DNA of 64,000 bases. Origin: Planctomycetota bacterium (GTDB taxonomy: Bacteria; Planctomycetota; Phycisphaerae; Phycisphaerales; UBA1924). The stretch lies in NCBI GenBank assembly GCA_963204725.1, contig CAUJHH010000026.1, forward strand, positions 124,001-188,000, read 5' to 3'. Numbering within the stretch: the stretch's first letter is position 1; each line of letters starts with the position of its first letter. The position numbers and the translations under genes were made by a program. Shown here one piece after another: positions 42,826 to 45,316 of the stretch. The notes under the pieces were generated by a model, which saw nothing but the letters and a program-made list of their open reading frames with translations, was not told where the DNA came from and did not search any database.

Positions 42826-43024
42826 AAAAACAAACCAGCCCCGCCTTGCGGCGGGGCTGGCTGCTGAGGACGCATGGCCCACACGGGCCTCGCCAGGGGG
42901 CTGCTGATACCCGTGGCGAAACTGCGTCCTGGGAGGATCATTCTTCGCGTTGCACTTCGGCCCCTCTCATCAACAATGAAGTGTACGAGGACACGCGATG
43001 CACTGCCACCGATCGTCCGAGATC
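42826..43024 (-). ncRNA. Candidate small structured RNA with its own promoter and terminator
   Basis: About 199 bases on the minus strand. A promoter (TTGCAC, 16 bases, TATCTT) lies at 43,058-43,031. Inside the transcript AGGACGCA (42,930-42,923) pairs perfectly with TGCGTCCT (42,874-42,867), enclosing a second stem of CCCGTG/CACGGG type. Two near-identical 11-mers (CGCGATGCACT at 42,994-43,004 and CGCGTTGCACT at 42,946-42,956, plus-strand reading) lie upstream. The 3' end is a textbook intrinsic terminator with U-run. No known RNA family was recognised. The size is like 6S RNA but the expected 6S features were not seen. Confidence 0.5.
42835..42860 (-). terminator. Intrinsic terminator (minus strand)
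   Basis: An 11-base perfect stem CCAGCCCCGCC/GGCGGGGCTGG with a four-base loop is followed on the minus strand by TTTGTTTTTG. On the plus strand no U-run follows, so it serves minus-strand transcription. The nearest minus-strand protein gene ends almost 500 bases away. Confidence 0.8.
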
Positions 43025-43030
43025 GTCCCA

Positions 43031-43058
43031 AAGATACAGGAATTCACGCTCGGTGCAA
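43031..43058 (-). promoter_or_regulatory. Promoter of the candidate small RNA
   Basis: TTGCAC (43,058-43,053), 16 bases, TATCTT (43,036-43,031) on the minus strand. Same TTGC-16 format as other promoters in this window. Confidence 0.5.
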
Positions 43059-43354: not shown

Positions 43355-45316
43355 TCAGCTTTCGCGTTGCGCCACCGTCTGCGGGTGAGAGATCGGCTCA
43401 AGGGTCTGCATGTGGAGCAACTCCGCGTAGCGGCCTCCGGCGGCGGCGAGCGATGCGTGCGTGCCGATCTCGGCGACGCGCCCCTGATCGAGGACAACGA
43501 TGCGAGAAGCGTTGCGAATCGTCGAGAGTCGATGGGCGATCACGAACGTCGTGCGCCCCTTGAGGAGCTCCTCGAGCGATCGCTGGATGGCAAACTCAGA
43601 CTCCGAGTCGAGGTTGCTGGTCGCCTCATCAAGAATGAGAATGCGCGGATCGGCAAGGACCGCACGCGCCAGAGCGATTCGCTGCTTCTGGCCCCCCGAG
43701 AGCCGCACGCCGCGCTCGCCAATCAGCGTCTCGTATCCACCCTCGAGACGCTCGACAAACTCATGCGCGTTCGCAATGCGGGCGGCACGCTCGATCTCCT
43801 CTTGCGATGCGCCTCGCATCGCATAGGCGATGTTCTCGGCGATGGTCCCGTCGAATAGAAAGACATCCTGCTCGACGATACCGAGCAGCCTTCGATACGA
43901 CGCCACATCGATGTCGCGAAGATCCACTCCATCGAGGAGAACCGCGCCCGCGCTCGGATCGAAGAATCTCGCGATCAGATTCGTCAGCGTGGTCTTGCCC
44001 GATCCACTCGGTCCCACCAACGCGATCGTCTCTCCCGGCATCACATCGAGCGACACGCCGTCGATGACCGCCTGCTTCTGGCCGGGGTAGGCGAACGAAA
44101 CATCGCGCAGCGTGACCCTTCCGATCGCGGCACCTCGGGAGACCTGCAGCGGCCCGGCGCCCGACGCACCCACCTGCTCGAACTCACTCGGCTCTGCCAG
44201 CAGATCGAGCGTGCGTTCCAGGCCCGCGAGCTGGCTCTGCACGTTGGTCGCACTGGAAACGATGGCCTCCAGAGGCGAAAGCAGCATGAGCAAGTACGTC
44301 GAGAACATCATGAGGTCGCCGATGGTGAGGGACTGGCCGATGACGCGCGTGCCGCCATAAAGGAGCAGCGCCGCGGACGCACCGGGGATCAAGACCTGCC
44401 ACGCGATGTCGACCGCCCGCGACCACCACCAGGCCATGATCTCCTGACGTGCCATGAGGTGATTGGCGTGCGCGAACCGAGCGGACTCTCCGTGCTGCCG
44501 AGCGAAGCCCCGAACGATCCGTATGCCGCCGAAGGTCTCGGTGGCATGCGCGTCGATGGACGATCGCCCCTTCCTGATATCGAGGTAGACGGGGCGGATT
44601 CGCGCGATCCACGTTTTGTGGCTGAGCCAGACAATGGGGATCAGGAGCAAGGAACCGACGAGCAGTCTCCAGTCGACCCAAGCGAGGATCATCAAGGTGC
44701 CGGTGAGCTGCACGATGGCTCGCCATGGGTTGTAAATGAGGTTGAACAGCAGCTCGGCCGTCCCGCCCGCGTCCTCCCGGATGATGCTCGCGAGACCGCC
44801 CGACTTGAGCTGCTGGACTCGATGGAGTGGCAGGGCGATCGCATGCTGGAACGCCCGCCGCCTGAGTGACAGTTGGACGAGCTTGGTCAAACGGGTCATC
44901 TGCCAGCGGCCGACCATCCCGACGAGAATCGAAACGACGGTCACCGAGATCATGCTGACCGCTACCAGCCAGAGCAGGGCGACGCGACTCCGCGGCAGCC
45001 ACGACCAGTCGGGAAGCCCGGAAGGACCAGGGTTGTCGGTCAACACATAATCAATGACGATCTTGGTTGCCGACGGAACCAGCAAGGCAAGAACCGTCGA
45101 GACGCTGAGCGTGGCGAGCGCCAAGGCGATGACCGGCTGGCGGCCTCGGAGCAGCGCCAGGAATGCGGCGAAGAGCGACACGAAGCTCCGACGCCGACGC
45201 CGGCTCGCGCCTCGCGTCTCGGTTCCCTCCGCGAGCGGTCGTCGCCTGTCCCCATCGGGTCGGCCGAGCGACGCCCTGTAACTACGAAACTTCAGGCGGC
45301 TGTTACCCCTCGTCAT
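43355..45316 (-). CDS. ABC exporter, fused membrane and ATPase domains (MsbA-like)
   Basis: 653 residues from the ATG preceded by AAGAAGGG. A basic N-terminus of about 60 residues leads into a six-helix type I exporter domain (about 65-360). The ATPase domain has Walker A LVGPSGSGKTTLTNL, Q loop IVEQDVFLFDGT, signature LSGGQKQRIALARA and Walker B RILILDEATSNLDSES, then the H-loop FVIAHRLSTI. Homodimeric lipid, polysaccharide or drug exporters have this layout. The longer upstream open frame lacks protein character and was not used. Diverges from the dicarboxylate symporter gene. Confidence 0.93.
   Translation of the reverse strand: MTRGNSRLKFRSYRASLGRPDGDRRRPLAEGTETRGASRRRRRSFVSLFAAFLALLRGRQPVIALALATLSVSTVLALLVPSATKIVIDYVLTDNPGPSGLPDWSWLPRSRVALLWLVAVSMISVTVVSILVGMVGRWQMTRLTKLVQLSLRRRAFQHAIALPLHRVQQLKSGGLASIIREDAGGTAELLFNLIYNPWRAIVQLTGTLMILAWVDWRLLVGSLLLIPIVWLSHKTWIARIRPVYLDIRKGRSSIDAHATETFGGIRIVRGFARQHGESARFAHANHLMARQEIMAWWWSRAVDIAWQVLIPGASAALLLYGGTRVIGQSLTIGDLMMFSTYLLMLLSPLEAIVSSATNVQSQLAGLERTLDLLAEPSEFEQVGASGAGPLQVSRGAAIGRVTLRDVSFAYPGQKQAVIDGVSLDVMPGETIALVGPSGSGKTTLTNLIARFFDPSAGAVLLDGVDLRDIDVASYRRLLGIVEQDVFLFDGTIAENIAYAMRGASQEEIERAARIANAHEFVERLEGGYETLIGERGVRLSGGQKQRIALARAVLADPRILILDEATSNLDSESEFAIQRSLEELLKGRTTFVIAHRLSTIRNASRIVVLDQGRVAEIGTHASLAAAGGRYAELLHMQTLEPISHPQTVAQRES

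Follow-up and report, generated by a model that had tools for sequence, protein, structure and literature searches.

The trans-acting small RNA (sRNA) NfeR1 of Sinorhizobium, which belongs to the alpha-r14 family, is Hfq-independent and exerts silencing by occupying the ribosome binding site; in RNAs of this type, the anti-Shine-Dalgarno motifs are C-rich and unpaired, and the stems vary around unpaired motifs that are conserved (PMC10746234). Several homologous sRNA copies per genome are found among the CcsR (cuckoo) RNAs of Rhodobacter and other alphaproteobacteria, and CcsR1-4 of Rhodobacter form a tandem cluster that is transcribed together with ccaF1, RNase E then releasing the RNAs (PMC10253847). 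The Pas sRNAs of E. coli are prophage-encoded, trace to Stx-type phages and occur in multiple copies via related prophages, and have a conserved seed, a likely Hfq-binding site and an intrinsic terminator (PMC13192938).

The RNA described here is encoded beside dut (dUTPase) in a 64,000-nucleotide stretch of DNA from a Planctomycetota bacterium, referred to below as the window, and resembles each of these systems in part. Like NfeR1, it has an unpaired C-rich anti-Shine-Dalgarno motif and a variable stem around a conserved unpaired motif, and would act in trans. However, NfeR1 has three hairpins, each with CCUCCUCCC, whereas here a single GAUCCUCCC is located at the 5' end, followed by a closed branched body, with none in the loops. 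The two also come from different phyla, and the family here has no match to any Rfam family. As with the CcsR RNAs, there are several homologous copies per genome, but these lie dispersed and carry individual promoter-like sequences and terminators. The likeness to the Pas sRNAs lies in the phage-associated multiple copies, the conserved seed and the intrinsic terminator, though the family here belongs to planctomycete elements and has a chromosomal orthologue in all four species of the genus. It is a genus-restricted, undescribed sRNA family common to the chromosome and prophage-like elements, i.e. a new family of a known kind (bacterial sRNA).

The Rfam search gave no match at gathering score in the window, in agreement with the sequence-only reading of this DNA, which could name no known family, and none in 17 loci with other copies. 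With a relaxed threshold, Caulobacter CC0196 was the candidate retrieved, but it was rejected as it scored 23.6 bits against a cut-off of 35 and the likeness was confined to the terminator hairpin.

Conserved structure of the RNA at the dut locus

An independent, structured non-coding RNA of about 199 bases had been proposed for the 233-base stretch at positions 42826-43058. When this stretch was searched with BLAST in 61 genomes, only its last ~110 bases recurred, many times, and the window copy matched 21 further copies. A dut-linked orthologue is present in each of the four species of the genus (genomes G000 to G003, G000 being the genome of the window), where the conserved block has sharp edges, starting at GATCC and ending at the terminator. 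The dut orthologues are 95-100% identical over the first 80 bases, as compared with 7-56% in the adjoining 40-base intergenic bins and mostly 60-90% in the dut coding region. A conserved island in unalignable flanks is strong evidence for selection on the RNA itself. Hence, an independent structured RNA is borne out, but not its length, as the conserved unit has only the size given in Table 1.

Table 1. Features of the RNA unit at the dut locus (positions in the window).
Feature	Position	Strand	Remarks
Conserved sRNA unit, GATCCTCCC through terminator	42829..42939	-	111 bases
Unpaired 5' tail GAUCCUCCC	42931..42939	-	candidate seed, complementary to Shine-Dalgarno
Closing stem (helix 1), AGGACGCA/UGCGUCCU	42867..42930	-	encloses two hairpins
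Variable hairpin (helix 2), UCGCCA...UGGCGA	42890..42919	-	invariant CAGCAGC in or beside the loop
Hairpin (helix 3), GGCCC-GUGU-GGGCC	42876..42889	-
Intrinsic terminator stem-loop (helix 4), then TGTTTTTG	42833..42862	-
Revised promoter candidate, GTGGCA-N18-TACACT	42980..43009	-	start near 42973; from comparison with dut orthologues

The unit consists of an unpaired 5' tail, a closed branched structure and an intrinsic terminator, and dut and the RNA stand tail to tail. The nearest minus-strand gene, that for an ABC exporter, ends at 43355. The sequence-only reading had placed its end almost 500 bases upstream; it lies ~300 bases upstream of the promoter then quoted and 415 bases upstream of the conserved RNA. 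A covariance model built from 19 distinct copies of the RNA scores the window copy, itself among the sequences of the model, at 122.9 bits over 42829-42939. The folding energy of the core (42826-42939) is -68.3 kcal/mol, as compared with -44.7 ± 3.5 in shuffled sequences (z -6.8, 0 of 200); the 5' stretch 42940-43030 is no more stable than its shuffled versions (z +0.6).

All of the sequence elements named by the sequence-only reading were found, though not every one is part of the gene. The 8-base long-range stem, AGGACGCA (42930-42923) with TGCGTCCT (42874-42867), is present and kept as the closing stem; two 11-mers, AGTGCATCGCG and AGTGCAACGCG, differ by one mismatch as reported; and the terminator was located at 42862-42833, where the U-run 3' of the stem reads TGTTTTTGCG. 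CACGGG (42915-42910) and CCCGTG (42887-42882) are likewise present, but do not hold as an inner stem, which would clash with helices 2 (TCGCCA/TGGCGA) and 3 (GGCCC/GGGCC) and is mismatched in the dut orthologues of G001 and G002. The TCGCCA/TGGCGA pairing is kept in the G002 orthologue via a compensatory change to TCGCCT/AGGCGA. A conserved protein frame is ruled out by the core lengths among the copies (111, 113, 114, 115, 116 and 117 bases), which are not confined to multiples of three, and by stop codons in several copies, consistent with the earlier failure to see a convincing one.

Covariation was assessed for four helices obtained from RNAalifold, with pairs counted on an unconstrained MAFFT alignment. 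Overall, 98% of the cells are paired. Changes on both sides were found in 36 cells, as compared with 12.7 ± 2.3 in shuffles (0 of 500 as high), and the covariation score is 0.216 against 0.095 (0 of 500). Sliding the helix partners destroys this signal, and no slid version comes close. Compensatory base changes occur in three of the four helices. In helix 1 (99.2% of cells paired), two pairs are changed on both sides and 5 of the 7 pairs of the closing stem never vary; in helix 2, three of the four modelled pairs change on both sides with pairing kept; and helix 4, the terminator, has two pairs with such changes. Helix 3 is paired in 100% of cells, with no both-side change. Double changes affect 7 pairs, against 5.2 in shuffles (38 of 500 as high), which is a mild excess. 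Given this count and the close kinship of the copies, through which the shuffle control somewhat overstates the signal, the covariation appears good but not overwhelming.

CAGCAGC is identical in all 19 distinct copies, within a stem that covaries, and a second CAGCAGC precedes the terminator. TCCTCC is present in every copy, though it also belonged to the pattern by which those copies were listed. In eight copies, with the RNA starting one base upstream, the mean unpaired probability of the tail is 0.95-0.99. The feature at the dut locus is almost certainly, on comparative grounds, a genuine, selected structured sRNA that was previously undescribed.

Copies in prophage-like elements and their distribution

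The four genomes contain 22 full copies (five in G000, four in G001, five in G002 and eight in G003). At one fixed junction in related prophage-like elements, with genes for integrase, terminase small subunit, ParB-methyltransferase and primase, lie 15 of these, the window copy not being among them. The order at this junction is an opposite-strand integrase gene, a LamG-like or dockerin-tailed gene on the strand of the RNA, the RNA, and opposite-strand genes for an MRSL protein, terminase small subunit, ParB-methyltransferase and primase. Some elements are without some of these parts or are cut by contig ends, and in some a dockerin-type gene also lies beyond the RNA. The seven chromosomal copies comprise four at dut, two at mutL, and one in G002 near a ZnuA-type (zinc-uptake) operon; no copy was found at the mutL locus of G000 and G002. 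The window copy is the most widely kept copy of the family. In an unrooted tree the dut and mutL copies group together, which leaves unsettled whether host or phage was the donor. The multicopy, prophage-shared nature of the RNA emerges only from relatives, which were not available to the sequence-only reading.

The fixed junction, with same-strand LamG/dockerin genes on one side and opposite-strand terminase, ParB-methylase and primase genes on the other in the 15 copies, would also suit a selfish or structural DNA or RNA part of the elements, serving attachment, packaging or the end of an operon, with the dut and mutL copies as leftovers. This is distinctly improbable. No element genes flank the dut copy, yet no other part of its locus is as well conserved in the four genomes, where a leftover would decay like its flanks. 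Furthermore, the structure covaries as RNA, and the copies are equipped with promoter-like sequences and terminators.

Each genome of the genus includes related prophage-like elements, several in most (L054-L062, L065-L068, L071-L073). Their cargo genes are swapped around constant parts and often encode secreted proteins ending PDxNGDTxxDxxDFLDFxxAFxQGC. A divergent relic of the RNA (38.9 bits; L073 4729-4843, G002:C63), in which the terminator and a CAGCAGC are retained, lies ~1.3 kb downstream of an intact copy in the same G002 element. Prophage copies L014, L025, L026 and L022 share a conserved block, CTCCGTTCCCTCCCAAATAGCGATCC, which is found ~85-110 bases before the RNA, after the upstream stop codon and ahead of the promoter, and its CCCTCCC resembles the RNA tail. 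A CsrA-domain protein (PF02599, 34 bits; L056 6245-6871) is encoded 1-1.7 kb upstream of one RNA copy. Several copies (L057, L058, L060, L068, L069) border genes for metal or ion transport, assigned by Pfam or by reading, namely ZnuA operons, a cation diffusion facilitator, a CysA-type transporter and an RND-like pump; this neighbourhood may be coincidental or reflect a preference at integration.

In the other 159 genomes of the taxonomic family, the model search, with stricter filters that lose weak matches, found no copy, and a search without filters at the dut loci of 22 relatives from outside the genus was likewise negative. A CAGCAGC motif scan of a 397-genome sample of the class returned, outside the genus, scattered partial matches without the rest of the pattern. 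The matches listed from a loose motif scan of 84,980 genomes were mostly due to chance, and among the sampled loci rescored with the model only those of this genus survived. None of the motif matches in IMG/VR fits the family model, and BLAST against PLSDB gave no match.

The sequence-only reading had mentioned 6S RNA as a match in size, and both are intergenic and structured. A search of the four genomes with RF00013 gave no match at gathering score, a result that is weak alone, as a divergent 6S gene could escape, and that leaves the 6S gene of these species unaccounted for. Nevertheless, it is scarcely credible that the RNA is 6S RNA, or another housekeeping RNA unrecognised through lineage divergence: it has a branched fold instead of one long rod with a central bubble, is present in four to eight copies per genome (five in G000), and is absent from the dut locus of the 22 relatives and from the rest of the family. 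Two other classes were rejected. RNAs of the CsrB/RsmY type carry many GGA in loops, and reading of the 111-base core found one GGA only, in the closing stem. For a retron or diversity-generating retroelement RNA, no RVT_1 was found in G000, which has five copies of the RNA; the relatives have one or two RVT_1 matches each, none beside the dut copies.

Probable transcription start and proposed mode of action

All 18 non-dut copies have a -10-like hexamer (TATATT, TATTAT, TATGAT, TACACT, TAGACT and similar) that starts 12-15 bases upstream of the GATCC position, exactly at -13 in 16 cases. Most prophage copies read GTGGCC-N18-TATATT, ending 7 bases before GATCC, and an A occupies position -1 in each of the 14 prophage-type sequences scored. 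Given the position of the hexamer and the A at -1, the RNA start in the non-dut copies is placed at the tail. In three of the four dut copies, the matching box lies ~35 bases further upstream, at about -46/-48, and reads TATAAT (G003), TATACT (G001) or TACACT (G000), with CTGGCA, CTGGCG and GTGGCA, respectively, as the upstream partner at 18-base spacing; no recognisable promoter box was found upstream of the G002 dut copy. The 5' end of the window RNA is thus probably close to 42973 rather than 43023, unless processing trims it back to GAUCC. Promoter assignments rest on comparison and not on score, as a consensus promoter scan of the window reported neither this candidate nor the TTGCAC/TATCTT pair of the sequence-only reading.

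That pair is present as quoted, with TTGCAC at 43058-43053 and TATCTT at 43036-43031 on the minus strand, separated by a 16-base spacer, and could drive a longer independent RNA of ~199 bases with a functional 5' half. Such an RNA is highly improbable. The hexamers are weak (7 of 12 consensus bases) and lie in a region that is unalignable and unconserved in the dut orthologues, and there is neither conservation nor excess structure upstream of GATCC.

There is an even chance that the family consists of base-pairing sRNAs, common to host and prophages, whose C-rich tail covers Shine-Dalgarno sequences. The free RNA would have ~111 bases when transcribed from the prophage and mutL copies and ~145 from the dut copy, unless trimmed to GAUCC. 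Acting in trans, it would pair via its unpaired tail with Shine-Dalgarno sequences of the GGGAGG type and keep a subset of mRNAs from being translated. Its branched body and terminator would stabilise the RNA and present the invariant CAGCAGC, perhaps to a protein. The tail and loop are common to host and prophage copies, whose targets would therefore overlap. The elements may have acquired their copies from the host, or phages may have left the chromosomal ones behind.

Possible targets were surveyed at 786 gene starts in 1.2 Mb of G003, identified by a custom gene caller so that the start codons are approximate. The tail forms 50 strong duplexes around start codons, as compared with 36 further upstream and 17 in coding sequence, and 40 permuted tails gave a median of 12 and a maximum of 40 around starts. 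This excess of anti-Shine-Dalgarno pairing is modest and would in part be seen with any C-rich tail. The best predicted target in G003, flgE, with 9-base complementarity, was not retained as a conserved target, one paired base being lost in G001 and the pattern search having yielded no flgE start in G000 or G002. With a start near 42973, the tail is largely masked in the dut copies of G000 and G002 (mean unpaired probability 0.35-0.45) and less so in those of G001 and G003 (0.72-0.95). Processing may therefore matter, since the 5' leader masks the tail in two of the four dut copies.

The CAGCAGC motifs show no excess pairing near the same 786 gene starts; hence, pairing does not explain their invariance, and they may bind a protein. 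Hfq was looked for and not found. The RNA as a whole might instead be a protein-binding one, in which the CAGCAGC loop, the second CAGCAGC and the closing stem form a site that titrates or guides a host regulator or a phage protein. This is possible though unlikely. It would account for a motif that is invariant while the surrounding stem covaries and for closing-stem pairs that never vary, though the invariance of CAGCAGC may stem from the close kinship of the copies. It fits poorly with the conserved unpaired C-rich tail and a start just before it, and the single GGA argues against a CsrB-like RNA, despite the CsrA homologue in one element.

If the RNA acts on Shine-Dalgarno sequences, a further and rather doubtful extension is that prophages captured or supplied a host regulon, with the chromosome and the elements expressing interchangeable anti-Shine-Dalgarno RNAs and, without recognisable Hfq, an unrecognised protein reading the CAGCAGC loop. 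To our knowledge, very little is known about small-RNA regulation in Planctomycetes. The covariance model and promoter definition obtained here are open to testing by RNA-seq at once, and an RNA common to the chromosome and several prophage-like elements provides a handle both on Hfq-independent regulation and on the exchange of regulators between phage and host. If the extended reading is true, phage and host would jointly set the translation of common targets in planctomycetes.
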